Origin: Acidocella aromatica
GTDB lineage: Bacteria > Pseudomonadota > Alphaproteobacteria > Acetobacterales > Acetobacteraceae
Reading direction: 5' to 3'
Length of the DNA stretch: 64,000 nucleotides
NCBI RefSeq assembly: GCF_014201825.1
Contig: NZ_JACHFJ010000003.1
Location: 124,001 to 188,000, forward strand
The notes under the pieces were generated by a model. The model was not told the DNA's origin. It saw only the letters and a list, made by a program, of their open reading frames with translations, and ran no database searches. Positions 42,639-56,695 of the stretch are shown here, in pieces; positions within the stretch are counted from its first letter, which is position 1; each line of letters starts with the position of its first letter. The position numbers and the translations under genes were made by a program.

Positions 42639-43421
42639 TCAGGCGGTTTTCCCAGCGGTTTCCATGGCGTGGGTAAACTGGTCCGCCGGCAGATAGGCGG
42701 CGAGCACCTCCTCCGGCGTGCCATCGGCCTTTACCGTGCCGCCATCCAGCCAGATGAGCCGGTTGCACCATTGCAGCAGGATATCGGGCCGGTGCGAGGA
42801 CAGCACCAGGATTTCCGCGCCGCGCACCATGGTCTCCAGCCGCTGGCGGGCCTTGTCGAGAAAGCTGGCATCGCCCGCCAGGAGCCATTCATCCATCAGC
42901 AGGATTTGCGCCCGGATGGCCGTGGCCATGGCAAACCCAAGCCGCACCACCATGCCGGAGCTGTAGGTGCGCACCGGCAGGGCCAAAAACTGGTCGAGCC
43001 CGGCAAAGGCGGCGACATCCTCTTGCAGTTCGCGGATCCGCGCTTCGGAATAGCCGTTGAAGAGGGCGCGCAGGCGGATGTTCTCATTGCCGGTGAGGTC
43101 CGGGTTCATGCCCTGGCCGGGGTCGAGCAGGGCGGTCACCGCGCCCTCGATGGTGATGCTCCCGCCCACCGGCTCGTAAATGCCCGCCATTGTCCGCAGC
43201 AGCGTGGTCTTGCCAGCGCCGTTGGAGCCGATGAAGCCCAGCCGGTCGCCCGTGTTGAGCGTGAAGGAGACACCGCGCAGCGCCTCCACGGTCAGGCGGT
43301 GGCGGCTGTCCTCGCCCAGCCGGCCCGAGGCGGCGGCGAGCACGGTCTTCTTCAGGCTGCGGCTCTCCGCGTGGTAGAGCGGAAAGGACACCGAGACATC
43401 GTTAACGATCAGCTGGGTCAT
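42639..43421 (-). CDS. Polysaccharide ABC exporter ATPase (Wzt/KpsT type)
   Basis: This 260-residue ATPase has Walker A GSNGAGKTT (66-74), the YSSGMVVRLGFA signature in which SSGM replaces LSGGQ as in capsule and O-antigen exporters, Walker B LLMDEWLLAGD, and a switch His in SSHRPD. Membranes of this class export lipid-linked polysaccharide. The C-terminal carbohydrate-binding domain of long Wzt proteins is absent, so it is the short KpsT-like form, which does not read the chain end. The permease gene lies three bases upstream. Confidence 0.9.
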   Translation of the reverse strand: MTQLIVNDVSVSFPLYHAESRSLKKTVLAAASGRLGEDSRHRLTVEALRGVSFTLNTGDRLGFIGSNGAGKTTLLRTMAGIYEPVGGSITIEGAVTALLDPGQGMNPDLTGNENIRLRALFNGYSEARIRELQEDVAAFAGLDQFLALPVRTYSSGMVVRLGFAMATAIRAQILLMDEWLLAGDASFLDKARQRLETMVRGAEILVLSSHRPDILLQWCNRLIWLDGGTVKADGTPEEVLAAYLPADQFTHAMETAGKTA

Positions 43422-43424
43422 GGC

Positions 43425-44363
43425 TTACAACCAATAGGGCAGGCGCGGCCGCGCGCGCGTGAAGACAAGGCCCGTGACCAGGAAGAGGCCCAGCGAATAG
43501 ATCACGGCCAGATGCCATGCGCCAGGATTGAGCGGCTGGCCGAGCAGCGGGCCGCGGATGATCTCCAGCAGCGCGTAGAACGGGTTGAGTTCGACGAACG
43601 CCTTGGCCAGTCCCCGATGCGCCAGCATCGCCGGGTTCCACATGATGGGCGTGACGTAGAAGGCGATCTGCATGATGCTGGCGATGATGGGCGGAATGTC
43701 CCGGAATCGCGCGCCGAACAGCCCCAGCAGCAGGCTCGCGGCAAAGCCGTCGGCCAGCCAGAGCAGGAAGCCGGGCAGCAGGGTAAAGCTATCCAGCCCT
43801 GGCCTGGTGCCGAACAGCGCGAACACCACCGCGATGACGACGACATTATGCCCCAGCACCAGCATGTTGCGCATCACCACCCGTGCGGCATGCACGGAAT
43901 GGGGCATGCGCATGGAGCGGATCATGGCATCGGCCTGGGTGAAGCAGGTGGTGGCATCCGAGGCGACGGTGCTGATGAAGGTCCACAGCACCAGCGAGAT
44001 GGTGAGGAACGGCAGGTAATCCCCGACATCCTGGTGGAACAGCCGCGCATAGAGCACGCCGATGGCCCCGACCATGATGGCGGTGGAGAGGGTTAGCCAA
44101 AGCGGCCCGAGCAGGGAGCCGCGATAGCGCAGGCGGATGTCGAACAGGCTGAGCGTCCACACCAGCGGCCAGAGCCGGGCGGTATCCGCAATGTCGGCCA
44201 GGGCCAGGCGCAGGCGTTCGCGCCAGCTATGCGAGGCGGCGATGACGAGCCGCTTTGCCGGCGGCGCGTCCGGTGGCGGCGAGCCGGGTCCGGCCGTATC
44301 CTGGCCAGGCGCAATCATGTGCATAGGCTGGCGATAGCGGAACGGTGGGGCGGCATCAACCAT
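43425..44363 (-). CDS. Polysaccharide ABC exporter permease (Wzm/KpsM type)
   Basis: This 312-residue protein has a Pro-rich cytoplasmic N-terminus (about 1-55) and about six membrane segments. LFDIRLRYRGSLLGPLWLTLSTAIMVG opens the first, and ITPIMWNPAML-type and ELNPFYALLEIIRGPLLG blocks match ABC-2 polysaccharide permeases. With the downstream ATPase it should export a lipid-linked glycan. GAGG six bases before the ATG supports the start. Glycosyltransferases for the chain are not next to it; two lie near 49-51 kb. Confidence 0.9.
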   Translation of the reverse strand: MVDAAPPFRYRQPMHMIAPGQDTAGPGSPPPDAPPAKRLVIAASHSWRERLRLALADIADTARLWPLVWTLSLFDIRLRYRGSLLGPLWLTLSTAIMVGAIGVLYARLFHQDVGDYLPFLTISLVLWTFISTVASDATTCFTQADAMIRSMRMPHSVHAARVVMRNMLVLGHNVVVIAVVFALFGTRPGLDSFTLLPGFLLWLADGFAASLLLGLFGARFRDIPPIIASIMQIAFYVTPIMWNPAMLAHRGLAKAFVELNPFYALLEIIRGPLLGQPLNPGAWHLAVIYSLGLFLVTGLVFTRARPRLPYWL

Positions 44364-47953: not shown

Positions 47954-48847
47954 ATGACGATAGATGGCCAGGCAGAGGCGTTTCTGGAAATGCTGGCCGC
48001 AGAGCGGGGGGCGGCGGCCAACACGCTCGCCGCCTATGCGGCGGACCTGGATGATTTTCTTGGCTTTTTGCGCACGCGCGGGGTGAGCGCCTGGGCGGCG
48101 GATGCCAGCCATGTGGCGGCCTATGTGCGCCAGCTATACGAGTTGGGGTTGGCCGCGCGCACCCAAGCGCGCAAGCTTTCCACCCTGCGGCAGTTCTTCC
48201 TGTTCCTGCTGCGCGAGGGGCGGCGGAGCGATAACCCGATGGCCGAGTTTGCCTCCCCGCGTTTGCCAAAGGCGCTGCCGAAATATCTGAGCGAGGCGGA
48301 GGTGATGGCTTTGTTCGGCGCGGCGCGGGAGCTTTCCGGCCTGAAGGGGCTGAAGGCGGTGGCGGGGCTGGAGATCCTCTACGCCACAGGCCTGCGCGTT
48401 TCGGAACTGCTGGCCCTGAAGGGCGAGGCGCTCTCCACCGATGCGCAGATGCTGTTGATTAAAGGCAAGGGCGGACGTGAGCGCATGGTGCCACTCTCGG
48501 CGCCCGCGAAGGATGCGGCGGCGGCACTGCGTGAGGTGATGGAGCAGAAGAAGCCCGTGCCGCGCTATCTGTTCAGTGGGCGCGACCCGCGCGAGCCGAT
48601 GACCCGCCAGGGCTTCGCGCTGCTGCTGAAACAGGTCGCGGTGCAGGCGGGGGTGGACCCGGAACGCCTCTCGCCGCATGTGCTGCGGCATTCCTTCGCC
48701 TCGCATTTGTTGGCGCATGGGGCGGATTTGCGAAGTTTGCAGAAGCTCCTTGGTCATGCGGACATCTCCACCACCGAGATTTACACCCATGTCCTGGCCG
48801 AGCGGCTACAGAAGCTGGTGAATACGCTGCATCCCCTAGCTGAATAG
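47954..48847 (+). CDS. xerD: Tyrosine recombinase XerD, chromosome dimer resolution
   Basis: From ATG 47954 this is a 297-residue tyrosine recombinase. The N-terminal SAM-like domain starts FLEMLAAERGAAANTLAAYAADL. The catalytic residues are Arg148 (ATGLRVSE), Lys172 (KGKGGRER), His242 and Arg245 (HVLRHSF), His268 (LLGHADIS) and Tyr277. XerC/XerD act at dif under FtsK control. It could be an integrase, but length, motifs and neighbours fit XerD. The frame opens earlier at 47915, across the aroKB start. Its last 12 bases overlap the convergent glycosyltransferase gene. Confidence 0.93.
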   Translation: MTIDGQAEAFLEMLAAERGAAANTLAAYAADLDDFLGFLRTRGVSAWAADASHVAAYVRQLYELGLAARTQARKLSTLRQFFLFLLREGRRSDNPMAEFASPRLPKALPKYLSEAEVMALFGAARELSGLKGLKAVAGLEILYATGLRVSELLALKGEALSTDAQMLLIKGKGGRERMVPLSAPAKDAAAALREVMEQKKPVPRYLFSGRDPREPMTRQGFALLLKQVAVQAGVDPERLSPHVLRHSFASHLLAHGADLRSLQKLLGHADISTTEIYTHVLAERLQKLVNTLHPLAE

Positions 48848-49804
48848 GCTAACCACTTGGCGCACCAGCCCGCCGCGATGGCGCGTCTCATTGCGGCTGA
48901 TATAGCGGCGCATTGACTCGGGCATCCGGCGCGGCTCGGGAATGTTTGCTTCAAAAGCCTGTGCCACCCCCCGCCAGACTTGCGGCGCGCAGCCATGCCG
49001 CCGCCCGTGCAGCCAATACACCCCGATGCGTGGCACCAGCCCCAGCCGGGAAGCCCCCCATTTGCGCGCGATGATCAGCCGGTTACGGACGAACCAGGCC
49101 ATGCGCTCGCCGCTCCACTGTACCCGCGCCTCGGCGGATGATTTGTGCAGCACGGTCAAGGTGCCATCGTAGGCAATGCGCCAGCCCAGAGCGATGGCGG
49201 CGAGGCAGAAATCATATTCCTCCCAGGTGAAGAACAGGCTGGAATCATACCCCCCGGCGGCGCTCCAAGCGGCGCGGCGGATGGCGTGCCCGGCCCCGAC
49301 GAAGGTGGAGGCGTCGAACCGCTCCCTGAAGCGCGGCAGCAGGGATTTGGGGTAGCCCCAGGCGCCTGGATCGGGGCCCGTGCCGTCGGCGGTGAGGATG
49401 GCGAAGCCCAGAGCGCCGAGATCGGGGCTGCGGCGGAAGCGCTTCAGCGCGTTGGCCACCACCCAGTCGTCGCGGAAGGTGGCGTCGTTATCCAGCGCCA
49501 CGATGACGCTCCCATGGCCGAGTTTGGCCGCGAGATTGCGCCCGCCCGCCACGCCGAGATTTTTGCCCGCGCTGTGGAGAGCGAAGCGCGGATGGGTACC
49601 GAAGGCGCGGGCGATGGCGGCGATGGTCTCGGGTTCCGAGCCCTGGTCCAGCACGGTGACGTGGAAGTCTCCGCCGCGCTGGGCCAAGGCGGAGCCGATG
49701 GCCTCTAGCGTATCCTCCAGCCGGTTGAGGCAGAGGATGATGATATCCGCGTCGTACCCGCCCAAGGGTGGGGGGAAGCCGGCGCGGCGCTTCTCAGTAG
49801 GCAT
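48836..49804 (-). CDS. Family 2 glycosyltransferase
   Basis: This 322-residue cytoplasmic enzyme has the GT-A start DADIIILCLNRLEDTLEAI, GKNLGVAGGRNLAA, the DxD-like ALDNDATFRDD, FVGAGHAIRRAAW, and EEYDFCLAAIALGWRIAYD with the probable catalytic acidic pair. It should add a sugar to a growing surface polysaccharide. The start overlaps the sugar-phosphate transferase stop by 11 bases on the same strand, so the two are coupled. No membrane segment is evident. The donor and acceptor are unknown. Confidence 0.87.
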   Translation of the reverse strand: MPTEKRRAGFPPPLGGYDADIIILCLNRLEDTLEAIGSALAQRGGDFHVTVLDQGSEPETIAAIARAFGTHPRFALHSAGKNLGVAGGRNLAAKLGHGSVIVALDNDATFRDDWVVANALKRFRRSPDLGALGFAILTADGTGPDPGAWGYPKSLLPRFRERFDASTFVGAGHAIRRAAWSAAGGYDSSLFFTWEEYDFCLAAIALGWRIAYDGTLTVLHKSSAEARVQWSGERMAWFVRNRLIIARKWGASRLGLVPRIGVYWLHGRRHGCAPQVWRGVAQAFEANIPEPRRMPESMRRYISRNETRHRGGLVRQVVSLFS

Positions 49805-51242
49805 TCTTCTGCGAGAGCACGGCGGGGAGCGTGCGCAACAGGATGGAGAGATCCAACCCCAGCGACCAGTTCTGGATATATTCGAGGTCGCTGGCCAGCC
49901 GCTGCTCCAGCGCCGCGATGGCCGGGGTGGCCCCGCGCTGACCGCGGATCTGCGCCAGCCCGGTCATTCCCGGCTTTACCCGGTGGCGCAGCCGGTACAG
50001 GCGCAACGCGGTTTCGAAGCTCAAGCCCTCCACCTGCGTCTCCGGCGCGTGCGGGCGCGGGCCAACGAGCGACATATCGCCGCGAAGGACGTTGATAAGT
50101 TGGGGGAGTTCGTCGAGCGAAAGGCGCCGCAGGATGCGCCCCGCCGGGGTAATGCGCGCATCACCCGTCTGGGCCTGGACGAAGGGGCGTTCCGGCGCAT
50201 GTGTCATGGTGCGGAACTTGAGTAGGGAAAAGCGCCGCCCATGCGCGCCGATGCGCGTCTGGCGGAACAGGACCGGCCCCGGGCTGCTCAGGCGCACCGC
50301 CATGGCCAGGGCCAGCAGCAGCGGGGCGACGAGGGCGAGCAGGGTCGTGCCGCCCAGCAGGTCCAGCAGGCGCTTGGCCGGGTTGGCGGAGGTGATCAGC
50401 TCCTCGGTGGCGATGGGCATGAGCTTGCACGCGCCGGAGCGGGATTTCAGCACGTCGGGCAGATTGGATGCGAGGTCGAAGGCCATCCAGATCTGCGCCG
50501 GGAAAGCGAGCAGTTCGGCCAGCAACTCCTGGTGCAGCGCGGCGCTGAAGCTCTCCAGCGCGGGGTGGTGGATGAACACCACGTCCTTAATGTCCCGCTC
50601 ATGGATGAGTTGCAGCAGGGCCTGGGGATCCGGCAGTTCCGGCCAGCGGTGCCAGTTGCCCGGCTCGTGCAGCCGCGAGAGGTGCAGCACCCCGGCGACG
50701 TTGCGGGATATCCGCTTCTCGGCCAGGGCGCGGGGCAGGTCGCGCGGGCAATGGTCGTAGCAGATGACGAGCGTGCCGCGCCCGGCCTGGGCTGGGTCAT
50801 CTGCCTCCGTGTGGATGGCGAGCAAAGAGCGCCCGCCCGCCAGCAGCAGCGGGGTGATGCCGAGGTCGGCCGCCGTCCAGGCGCGAGTGAGGATATGCGG
50901 ATCCCCAAGCAGCAGCGCCAAGGCGAGCATGGCGAGGCTGGTGGCGAGGAAGCTGTTGGCGGCGATGCTGGCGGGTTGCCGGGCCCACTTCCTGTAACCG
51001 CCATGCGAGGCGGTGAGCAGCACTGTGAGCAGGGCTAACAGTGCGTAAAACCACAGGTTGCGGAACAAGTCTTCGCTCTCCCGCATGAGCAGGCTGCCTG
51101 TCAGCGGCAGTGCCAGCATACAGAGAAGATCGGAAATAACCAGCAATTGCTGGCGGGTGAGCAGCGTGCGGGGGCAAAGAGAGGCCGTTTCAGCGCGGGT
51201 TTGCCCTTGTATCAGGGCCGCCGAGGCGTGAAGCTCCGCCAT
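49794..51242 (-). CDS. Membrane sugar-phosphate transferase initiating exopolysaccharide
   Basis: This 482-residue protein has about four or five N-terminal membrane segments (from residue about 30 to 150), a soluble middle domain, and a C-terminal bacterial sugar transferase domain (about 285-482). The latter shows KRLLDLLGGTTLLAL, SSPGPVLFRQTRIG, FKFRTM-like LLKFRTM, LRRLSLDELPQLINVLRGDMSLVGPRP. Members (WcaJ, ExoY, GumD) move a sugar-1-phosphate onto undecaprenyl phosphate, the first step in exopolysaccharide repeat building. Coupled to the glycosyltransferase gene by an overlap. Confidence 0.9.
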   Translation of the reverse strand: MAELHASAALIQGQTRAETASLCPRTLLTRQQLLVISDLLCMLALPLTGSLLMRESEDLFRNLWFYALLALLTVLLTASHGGYRKWARQPASIAANSFLATSLAMLALALLLGDPHILTRAWTAADLGITPLLLAGGRSLLAIHTEADDPAQAGRGTLVICYDHCPRDLPRALAEKRISRNVAGVLHLSRLHEPGNWHRWPELPDPQALLQLIHERDIKDVVFIHHPALESFSAALHQELLAELLAFPAQIWMAFDLASNLPDVLKSRSGACKLMPIATEELITSANPAKRLLDLLGGTTLLALVAPLLLALAMAVRLSSPGPVLFRQTRIGAHGRRFSLLKFRTMTHAPERPFVQAQTGDARITPAGRILRRLSLDELPQLINVLRGDMSLVGPRPHAPETQVEGLSFETALRLYRLRHRVKPGMTGLAQIRGQRGATPAIAALEQRLASDLEYIQNWSLGLDLSILLRTLPAVLSQKNAY

Positions 51243-51297
51243 ACGAGACGCTCTCTAAGGTTGTCGTGTAGTTAACGTGTTGTTACTTTGGGTTGTA

Positions 51298-51744
51298 TTA
51301 ACGAAACACGAAACGCTTGGAAAGCACATAATTAAAGATTAGCCCCGCTAACGTACCGGCGATGATGGCAATCACAGGTTGTTGATTGGCGAGGGGGAAA
51401 TGGGCCACCAGGGCGAAGAACACGCCGCGATTGAAAACAAATCCCACGGCATTGGCGGCGATGAAGCGCGCCCATTGGATATGGGCGGCATCATGCTCGT
51501 GGTGGCGGAAGGTCCAGAGCCGGTTGGCGGCCCAATTGACCGTGGCGGCGACGAGAAAGCCGCACGTGCCCGCGATGTAGAGATTGGTATGGCCGCGCAG
51601 CAGGTAGACGGTGCCGGTATCCCAGCAGAAGCCGAAGCCGCCGACGATGCCAAAGCGGATGAAGCTTTCCGGCAGCCCCAGCCGTGCCAGCAGCACGACC
51701 AGGGCATCGAGCCAGTTCAGCAGAAGCGGCTGGTTAGCCTGCAA
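51298..51744 (-). CDS. GtrA-family membrane protein
   Basis: This 148-residue protein has about four membrane segments with [27 protein letters not shown] and [10 protein letters not shown], the GtrA/DPMS family marks. Such proteins help move lipid-linked sugars across the membrane. The best start is TTG 51744, inside the last codons of purA, preceded by AGGA; the overlap with purA is 11 bases. A GTG some 15 codons later is a weaker alternative. It is likely the last gene of the hisZ-purA-gtrA operon. Confidence 0.82.
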
Positions 51745-54290: not shown

Positions 54291-55703
54291 GTGCTTTTCA
54301 ATAGCAGGCTGTTCATTCTGGTGTTTTTGCCGGTGGCGCTGGGTGGGTTTCTGGCCGCCGCCAAGCTGGGGCGCCGGGCGGCGATGCTCTGGCTGCTGGC
54401 GGTGAGCTTGGTCTTCTACGCGTGGTGGAAGCCGCCCTTTCTGCTTTTGCTGCTGGTCTCCATCGGGGCGAATTCCGGCTTTGGGCGGATGATCCCGCGC
54501 GGGCGGTTTTGGCTGGTGGCGGGGCTGGGGTTCAATCTCGGCCTGCTGGGGCTGTTTAAATATGCCGTGCTGTTTGGGGCCACGGGCATTTTCCTGCCGC
54601 TGGGAATCAGCTTCTTCACCTTTCAGCAGGTGATGTATCTGGTGGACGTGGCGCGTGGCGAACTGGGGGAGGTGGGGTTCCTCGATTATGCCTGCTTCAT
54701 CGCCTTCTTCCCGCATCTCATCTCGGGGCCGATCGTGCGGCCCGGCCATATCCTCCCGCAATTCGCGGCGTTGCGGCCCTGGGAGGGGCTGCGCGAGCGG
54801 CTGGTGCTTGGGACGGAAATCTTCCTGCTGGGGCTGGGCAAGAAGCTGGTGCTGGCGGATGGGCTGGCGCGCTTCGCCGAGCCGGGCTTCGCGGCGGCGG
54901 CGCGGCATGATCCGTTGAGCCTGATCGAGGCCTGGGTGGCGCTACTGGCCTATGGGCTGCAAATCTATTTCGACTTCTCCGGCTATTCGGACATGGCGAT
55001 CGGCCTCGCGCGGATGTTCGGCATCAAGTTCCCGGTGAATTTCAACAGCCCGTACAAGGCACGGAACATCAGCGATTTCTGGCGGCGCTGGAACATCACG
55101 CTGAGCGGGTTTCTGCGCGACTACCTCTACATCCCGCTCGGCGGCAACCGGCAGGGCGAGGGCAAGCGCATCCGCAACCTGATGATCACCATGCTGCTCG
55201 GCGGGCTGTGGCACGGGGCGGCGTGGCGGTTCGTGCTGTGGGGTGGGCTGCATGGGGTGTATCTGGTGCTGCATGGCTGGGTGGAGCGGCTGGGCTGGCG
55301 GGTTCCGGCAAGGCTGGGCTGGGGGCTGACGCTGCTTTGCGTGCTGCTGGCCTGGGTGCCGTTCCGCGCCGAAGGGTTTGGCGCTGCGATGCTCTTTTAT
55401 AAGGCGCTGTTCGGCGGCAATGGCGTCGCGCTCCCGCAGATTTTTGCCCAGGCCGTGCCCTGGCTCGCGGCGTATGTGCGTGTGGTGCCGGTGTTGCCGT
55501 ATCTGGGCGATGCCCGCACCCTCAGCCTGCCGCAGGGTGTGTTGTTCCTGGCACTGGGGTGGTGGATTGCGCTGGCACTGCCGAATACGCAGGAGATGAC
55601 GCGCAATCGCCGCCATATGGCGTTGTTGGGGAGTTTTGCGTTCAGCGTGCAAGCGCTGTTCTTTGCCCCGGCTGCCGTGCCGTTTCTGTATTTCCAGTTC
55701 TGA
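54291..55703 (+). CDS. MBOAT O-acyltransferase, AlgI/DltB type
   Basis: From GTG 54291 this is a 470-residue inner-membrane protein with about ten hydrophobic segments. VFYAWWKPPFLLLLL, PLGISFFTFQQVMYLVDVARGE, PHLISGPIVRP, YGLQIYFDFSGYSDMAIG, ARNISDFWRRWNITLSGFLRDYLYIPLGG and LLGGLWHGAAW are AlgI signature blocks. His308, in LWHGAAW, and His321 are the expected active-site histidines. The family passes acyl groups, usually acetyl, across the membrane to polysaccharides. It overlaps the next gene (TGATG). The ribosome site is weak. Confidence 0.92.
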   Translation: MLFNSRLFILVFLPVALGGFLAAAKLGRRAAMLWLLAVSLVFYAWWKPPFLLLLLVSIGANSGFGRMIPRGRFWLVAGLGFNLGLLGLFKYAVLFGATGIFLPLGISFFTFQQVMYLVDVARGELGEVGFLDYACFIAFFPHLISGPIVRPGHILPQFAALRPWEGLRERLVLGTEIFLLGLGKKLVLADGLARFAEPGFAAAARHDPLSLIEAWVALLAYGLQIYFDFSGYSDMAIGLARMFGIKFPVNFNSPYKARNISDFWRRWNITLSGFLRDYLYIPLGGNRQGEGKRIRNLMITMLLGGLWHGAAWRFVLWGGLHGVYLVLHGWVERLGWRVPARLGWGLTLLCVLLAWVPFRAEGFGAAMLFYKALFGGNGVALPQIFAQAVPWLAAYVRVVPVLPYLGDARTLSLPQGVLFLALGWWIALALPNTQEMTRNRRHMALLGSFAFSVQALFFAPAAVPFLYFQF

Positions 55704-56695
55704 TGCACCGGTTGCTGCTGACTTGTCTGGCCTCGGTGGCGTTGTATGCGGCAGTGTTCGCCGGGGTGGCGGACAGGCCATTATCTTTGGGCGTGCTGCG
55801 GCTGGAGTTGCTGGATAAAACCGCCGCACTGGCCGCCATGCCTTTGCCGCGCCTGGTGATTCTAGCAGGCTCCAACGGGCCGTATTCGCATTCCTGCGCG
55901 GTGCTGGGGACGATGTTGGATATGCCGTGCGAGAATGCGGGCATCGCCGTGGGCATTGGGCTGGACGATGTATTCGCCCGCTACGCGCCGCTGCTGCGTC
56001 CTGGCGATGTTGTGTATATGCCGATGGAACTGGCGCAATACACGATGAGTGCTGGGGAATATCGCGCAGCGGTGGATGGCGCATTCCTGCTCCGGCATGA
56101 TCGGGATGTGCTGCGCGAGATGCCGCGAGAACGGGCGCTGGGTGCGGTTTTCTGCTGCCAATTGGATGATCTTCTGGAATCCGCCGCGGAGATGCCGCTG
56201 GCGCATCTGCATGCGCTGGACGCACAGGCGCTGCTGGCGCGAGAGTATAATGAACAAGGTGATAGAGTTGATAACGATTTGGCGTTGCGGGACGCAGCGC
56301 TGATTGGCGCTGCGCCGCGCGTGTTGCCGACATCGCCGGAAATCACTGCGGGGTATGGCAGCAGGCTGATTTCCGGTTTTGTCGCGGTGCAGGGGCGGCG
56401 GGGCGTGGTGGTGATTGGCGGGTTGCCGGCGGATGACCGGCAACAGGCGCTGCCGCCGGATGTGCTGGCGGCAATCCGGGCTGTGTATGTGCAAAATGGC
56501 GGGGCGTTTCTGGCGTTGCCGAATGAAAGCCATTACCCGGCGGCGGATTTTTTCAACAGCGAGGACCATCTGGCCAAGCCTTGCCAGTACGCGCATTCCA
56601 TCGCGCTGGCGCCGCTGCTGGGGGCGGCGTTGCATCGCCCCGTGCAGCCGCCATCGCCTGAGGTTAAGGCGATGGCGGAGGCGTGTCCGCAGTAA
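55703..56695 (+). CDS. SGNH-like exported partner of the MBOAT protein, unfamiliar
   Basis: From ATG 55703 this is a 330-residue protein with an N-terminal hydrophobic signal anchor (about 3-20), so most of it faces the periplasm. LVILAGSNGPYSHS (Ser57 of GSN) looks like the nucleophile block of SGNH/DltD-type acyl-handling proteins. FNSEDHLAKPCQYAHS at about 284-299 resembles the C-terminal Asp-His block, but the usual Asp position appears to be Asn285. Cysteines occur as C65/C76 and C151/C152. Its start overlaps the MBOAT stop, so the two work together. Probable role: receiving the acyl group and moving it to a glycan. Substrate unknown. Confidence 0.65.
   Translation: MHRLLLTCLASVALYAAVFAGVADRPLSLGVLRLELLDKTAALAAMPLPRLVILAGSNGPYSHSCAVLGTMLDMPCENAGIAVGIGLDDVFARYAPLLRPGDVVYMPMELAQYTMSAGEYRAAVDGAFLLRHDRDVLREMPRERALGAVFCCQLDDLLESAAEMPLAHLHALDAQALLAREYNEQGDRVDNDLALRDAALIGAAPRVLPTSPEITAGYGSRLISGFVAVQGRRGVVVIGGLPADDRQQALPPDVLAAIRAVYVQNGGAFLALPNESHYPAADFFNSEDHLAKPCQYAHSIALAPLLGAALHRPVQPPSPEVKAMAEACPQ

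Follow-up and report, generated by a model that had tools for sequence, protein, structure and literature searches.

Paired MBOAT and SGNH-like genes in Acidocella aromatica as a probable acyl relay to the cell envelope

A 64,000-nucleotide stretch of the Acidocella aromatica genome (contig NZ_JACHFJ010000003.1, positions 124,001 to 188,000; hereafter the window) carries an MBOAT acyltransferase gene directly followed by a gene for an SGNH-like protein of unfamiliar sequence. The locus raises the question of whether the two proteins form a working unit, by which route an acyl group would pass between them, and which acceptor would receive it. We consider it probable (roughly 0.8) that the pair is an MBOAT-SGNH acyltransferase of the DltB(X)-DltD/PatA-PatB kind, in which an acyl group would travel from acyl-CoA through acyl-Tyr and acyl-Ser to an envelope polymer. 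The most likely account combines a known relay mechanism with an uncatalogued SGNH family as the partner. A literature search found nothing on an MBOAT and SGNH-like pair in the Acetobacteraceae.

Layout and inheritance of the gene pair

The MBOAT gene (54291..55703, plus strand; 470 aa, GTG start) and the gene for the predicted membrane-anchored periplasmic SGNH-like partner (55703..56695, plus strand; 330 aa, ATG start) share a single base. The coupling takes the form of a TGATG stop/start overlap at 55701..55705, in which TGA occupies 55701-55703 and ATG occupies 55703-55705. We compared 69 loci collected by partner family, 64 of which have an MBOAT gene with an intact 3′ end. The MBOAT gene lies directly 5′ of the partner gene in almost all cases, and the junction in most relatives is either the identical one-base overlap, which is often repeated, or a short gap. 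The nearest named relative of the source is Acidocella sp. KAb 2-4, and the adjacency recurs in dozens of species. This recurrence, together with the invariance of partner residues Ser57 and His289 (64/64 homologues), shows that the pairing is not due to chance.

The two genes are also gained and lost together. Among 38 sampled Acidocella genomes, both genes were found in 14 and neither in 21, while two had the partner only and one the MBOAT only (Fisher p 1.7e-7); all three single-gene cases are fragments. The partner and MBOAT trees are in broad agreement. The preliminary description of this DNA had taken the overlapping genes to be a functional unit of an MBOAT and an SGNH-like protein, a reading now backed by the sequence, the conserved adjacency and the co-inheritance.

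Several individual loci depart from the usual layout. Genome G025 retains only decayed remnants, namely a stretch with weak resemblance to the beginning of the MBOAT and, about 90 bases away, residues 32-98 of the partner; since remnants of both genes lie in one place, this genome probably lost them together. In Acidocella RAIPG19 (L035/L059), a transposase gene is found upstream of the partner gene at the expected place of the MBOAT gene, and an MBOAT of the pair type is found at another contig end. In bog_899 (L061/L038), the partner gene has no adjoining MBOAT gene, and an intact MBOAT with 63-65% identity is encoded elsewhere in the genome (G004:C17).

The MBOAT protein and its C-terminal tail

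The first protein scores 117 bits with Pfam PF03062 (cut-off 27; E 1.4e-33), and this match, together with His308 in an LWHG motif, places it in the MBOAT superfamily. The codon of this conserved and predicted catalytic histidine lies at 55212..55214 (plus strand), and the role of the residue has been described (PMC12148441). By phmmer, the protein resembles the DltB structures 6bug and 8jem at about 1e-30, and its 175.7 bits against the DltB family model fall far under the 375-bit cut-off of that model. It is the only MBOAT of the source genome.

The MBOAT ends in the hexapeptide FLYFQF (55683..55700, plus strand), an instance of the FXYXXF motif that terminates bacterial MBOATs of this kind (PMC12148441), with Tyr467 as the predicted acyl carrier. 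The pattern F[LI]YF[QR]F forms the C-terminus in all 64 intact relatives. In the PatA-PatB system, the tyrosine of PatA is auto-acetylated from acetyl-CoA and PatB then acetylates a glycan using the acetyl-Tyr hexapeptide, and DltX supplies an equivalent acyl-shuttle part for DltB-DltD (PMC12148441). Two features of an MBOAT-SGNH relay are thus present here, the hexapeptide on the MBOAT itself and a cognate SGNH-like partner encoded alongside. The preliminary description, which did not name this decisive tail, had suggested a divergent type of acyl relay. A relay is indeed likely, but it is not of a new type, since the FXYXXF ending of the MBOAT is an established acyl shuttle.

By analogy with these systems, the MBOAT would use His308 to accept an acyl group at the cytoplasmic face of the membrane and load it onto Tyr467 of its own tail; acetyl, donated by acetyl-CoA, is the most likely candidate. 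The tail would then present acyl-Tyr to the membrane-anchored partner in the periplasm, where the acyl group would pass to Ser57, activated by His289. The partner would finally hand the acyl group to a hydroxyl on some polymer of the cell envelope, probably a glycan, and the pair as a whole would thereby carry it across the inner membrane.

The arrangement resembles the PatA-PatB system of Gram-negative peptidoglycan O-acetylation, in which the MBOAT likewise bears its own C-terminal FXYXXF tail and works with a membrane-anchored periplasmic SGNH partner whose Ser precedes His in the chain; unlike that system, no peptidoglycan genes are linked to the pair. With the DltB-DltX-DltD system of teichoic acid D-alanylation it shares a related MBOAT domain and the same shuttle motif. 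The motif is carried by the separate DltX in that system, whereas here it is fused to the MBOAT, and the operon of the pair contains no DltA, DltC or DltX.

A linked model was obtained for the homologous pair of Acidisoma silvae, not for the window pair, as an artificial read-through with TAG read as Gln; because the two Acidisoma silvae genes are in one frame, read-through joins both proteins by about 33 residues. The resulting chain of 844 aa has a pTM of 0.90 and a linker pLDDT below 50. Had the two domains no defined placement relative to each other, pTM should have come out clearly lower, so this value is consistent with a complex of the Acidisoma silvae MBOAT and its partner. The best structural match of the MBOAT half is DltB (TMt 0.70).

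The partner protein and its active-site residues

Neither single-sequence nor profile searches with the partner found a credible match in Pfam, in NCBIfam or among PDB sequences, and a scan of 63 of its homologues likewise gave no match to a Pfam, NCBIfam or PDB family. The sole PDB profile match was the designed protein 2l82 (E 0.025), which was dismissed. On these searches, the partner appears to be a member of a conserved family that has no name in the databases searched. The preliminary description had found it unlike AlgJ, AlgX, PatB and DltD, and at the level of sequence families the profile searches agree, extending the statement to PatB1. None of the 63 partner members examined matches the DltD profile (PF04914), and DltD was found neither in a search of 130 proteobacterial genomes nor in the source genome. 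PatB shows no sequence match to the partner, and PatB chains were not matched by the partner profile. The partner does not match PF16822 (AlgX/AlgJ) or PF14286 (DHHW/PatB1), and a profile comparison with AlgX aligned the block V half only, at a probability of 5.7%.

Structure prediction and a fold search, which the preliminary description had proposed for the 330-residue protein, placed it nearest to SGNH enzymes. The AF2 model has a pLDDT of 94.1 and a pTM of 0.91. A helix at residues 2-22 (55706..55768, plus strand; hydropathy 1.65-2.25) reads as a membrane anchor. In Foldseek, the model matched rhamnogalacturonan acetylesterase, LAE5, PAF acetylhydrolase and DltD with probabilities of 0.90-1.00, at E-values of only 2e-3 to 0.1 and a query TM of about 0.4. 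A confident model and high match probabilities, with modest E-values and TM scores, thus point to an SGNH fold, and DltD is the best-matching SGNH fold that is partnered by an MBOAT. PatB has beta-hairpin wings, whereas DSSP shows none in the partner model.

The GSN block and the late D/N-x3-H block recognized in the preliminary description are found at residues 56-58 and at Asn285 and His289, near the end of the protein. The predicted block I nucleophile Ser57 (AGSN; 55871..55873, plus strand) and the block V histidine His289 (56567..56569, plus strand) are unvaried in all 64 Acetobacteraceae homologues and are retained in the distant relatives. Because Ser57 precedes His289, as in canonical SGNH enzymes, the partner is not of the AlgJ/AlgX/PatB1 type, which is circularly permuted with respect to those enzymes (PMC9487903). 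The alginate O-acetylation system AlgI-AlgJ/AlgX and the PatA1-PatB1 system of the DHHW family, which acts on a secondary cell wall polysaccharide, do share the MBOAT-SGNH pairing, and by analogy the former would suggest glycan acetylation. In AlgJ/AlgX, however, DTH precedes the GTSY serine, as was checked on AlgX homologues, and DHHW/PatB1 proteins combine a TDHHW motif with circular permutation (PMC9487903), neither of which is found in the partner.

Two of the usual SGNH positions differ. Where the block III Asn would be expected, and is retained in PatB, the partner has Glu109 (56027..56029, plus strand), invariant in 64/64 homologues and in all distant relatives; the correspondence was inferred from sequence order and from the secondary structure and strand-loop layout of the model. 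In block V, where PatB has DxxH, Asn285 (56555..56557, plus strand) stands four residues before His289. The preliminary description had taken the acidic residue to be changed to Asn. This is so in the window, but the change is lineage-specific, and most homologues have Asp at this position (Asp 48, Asn 15, Gly 1). The partner tree requires four changes to account for Asn285, at least three of which are forced by well-supported branches, so that Asn here is a tolerated and repeated substitution and not a defining change.

Since the window partner has Asn285 where Asp is usual and Glu109 where SGNH enzymes usually have the block III Asn, its catalytic activity is a matter of inference. These two residues would also suit a catalytically weak or dead SGNH-like protein that serves as a scaffold or acceptor-binding subunit, with acyl transfer carried out by the MBOAT itself or by way of a further protein. 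We regard this as very unlikely, given that Ser57 and His289 are invariant even in distant relatives, that Asp is kept in 48/64 homologues with at least three Asp/Asn switches on the tree, as suits a tolerated change, and that the partner is lost along with the sole MBOAT of the genome. Some SGNH enzymes of the CE2 family are, moreover, thought to work by a Ser-His dyad (PMC9487903). As a tentative proposal, the partner could represent an uncatalogued MBOAT-partnered SGNH acyltransferase family in which Ser57, Glu109 and His289 are invariant while Asn can take the place of the acidic residue, perhaps operating by a Ser-His dyad and modifying an envelope polymer of acidophilic Acetobacteraceae.

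The distant relatives, mostly from other proteobacterial families, are 16-21% identical to the window partner and keep Ser57, Glu109 and His289. Each has an MBOAT gene directly upstream, with a readable FXYXXF end in 7/8. Cys65 and Cys76 are invariant in the 64 Acetobacteraceae homologues and are not kept in the distant relatives; a disulfide beside the nucleophile helix is possible. The partner genes of three Acetobacteraceae loci (L141, L143 and L144, from G248, G290 and G192) each contain one in-frame stop.

Genomic neighbourhood and the acceptor

We analyzed the neighbourhood of the pair in the 56 loci with enough upstream sequence. In 39 of these the pair adjoins a divergent hisZ, with purA, an association that extends over Acidocella, Acidiphilium and Rhodopila. 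No gene for an acceptor is linked to the pair. The exopolysaccharide genes pointed out in the preliminary description are present in the window at 48836-51744 on the minus strand, a few kilobases from the pair, and comprise genes of exopolysaccharide type for a family 2 glycosyltransferase, an undecaprenyl-phosphate sugar phosphotransferase and a GtrA-like protein. The implied link with the pair found no support, since it is hisZ-purA that lies beside the pair in 39/56 loci, and the exopolysaccharide genes are therefore not its conserved partners.

A role of the pair as a tailoring unit dedicated to these exopolysaccharide genes is quite unlikely. Their distance of 2.5-5 kb and the glycosyl-phosphate transferase close to the pair in nine other loci would fit such a role. 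In the neighbourhood comparison, however, genes of this type near the pair are confined to Acidocella-type loci, and across the three genera the pair and hisZ-purA occur without them; in the window, they lie on the opposite strand with hisZ and purA in between.

The position beside hisZ, outside a glycan cluster and among neighbours that imply no acceptor, could also be reconciled with an acceptor other than a glycan, for instance a lipid head group, a hopanoid or an envelope protein. We consider this unlikely, as the characterised MBOAT-SGNH pairs modify envelope polymers (PMC12148441) and the distant relatives L046 and L156 sit in polysaccharide clusters. For the wider family, the latter context favours a polysaccharide as acceptor, without naming the acceptor of the window pair.

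MBOAT-SGNH pairs are a general route to envelope-polymer acylation. The partner side of such pairs appears to hold at least one further conserved family with an unusual active-site signature, for which the Pfam and NCBIfam copies searched have no model. For these acidophiles, the pair is a lone MBOAT system that is easy to delete and whose acceptor could be found chemically, and the switching between Asp and Asn provides a natural test of the need for the acidic triad residue in acyl transfer. Elsewhere in the window, the region 42639-44363 (minus strand) encodes an ABC-2 type transporter permease and an ATPase which, by their translations, resemble a Wzm/Wzt-type polysaccharide exporter.
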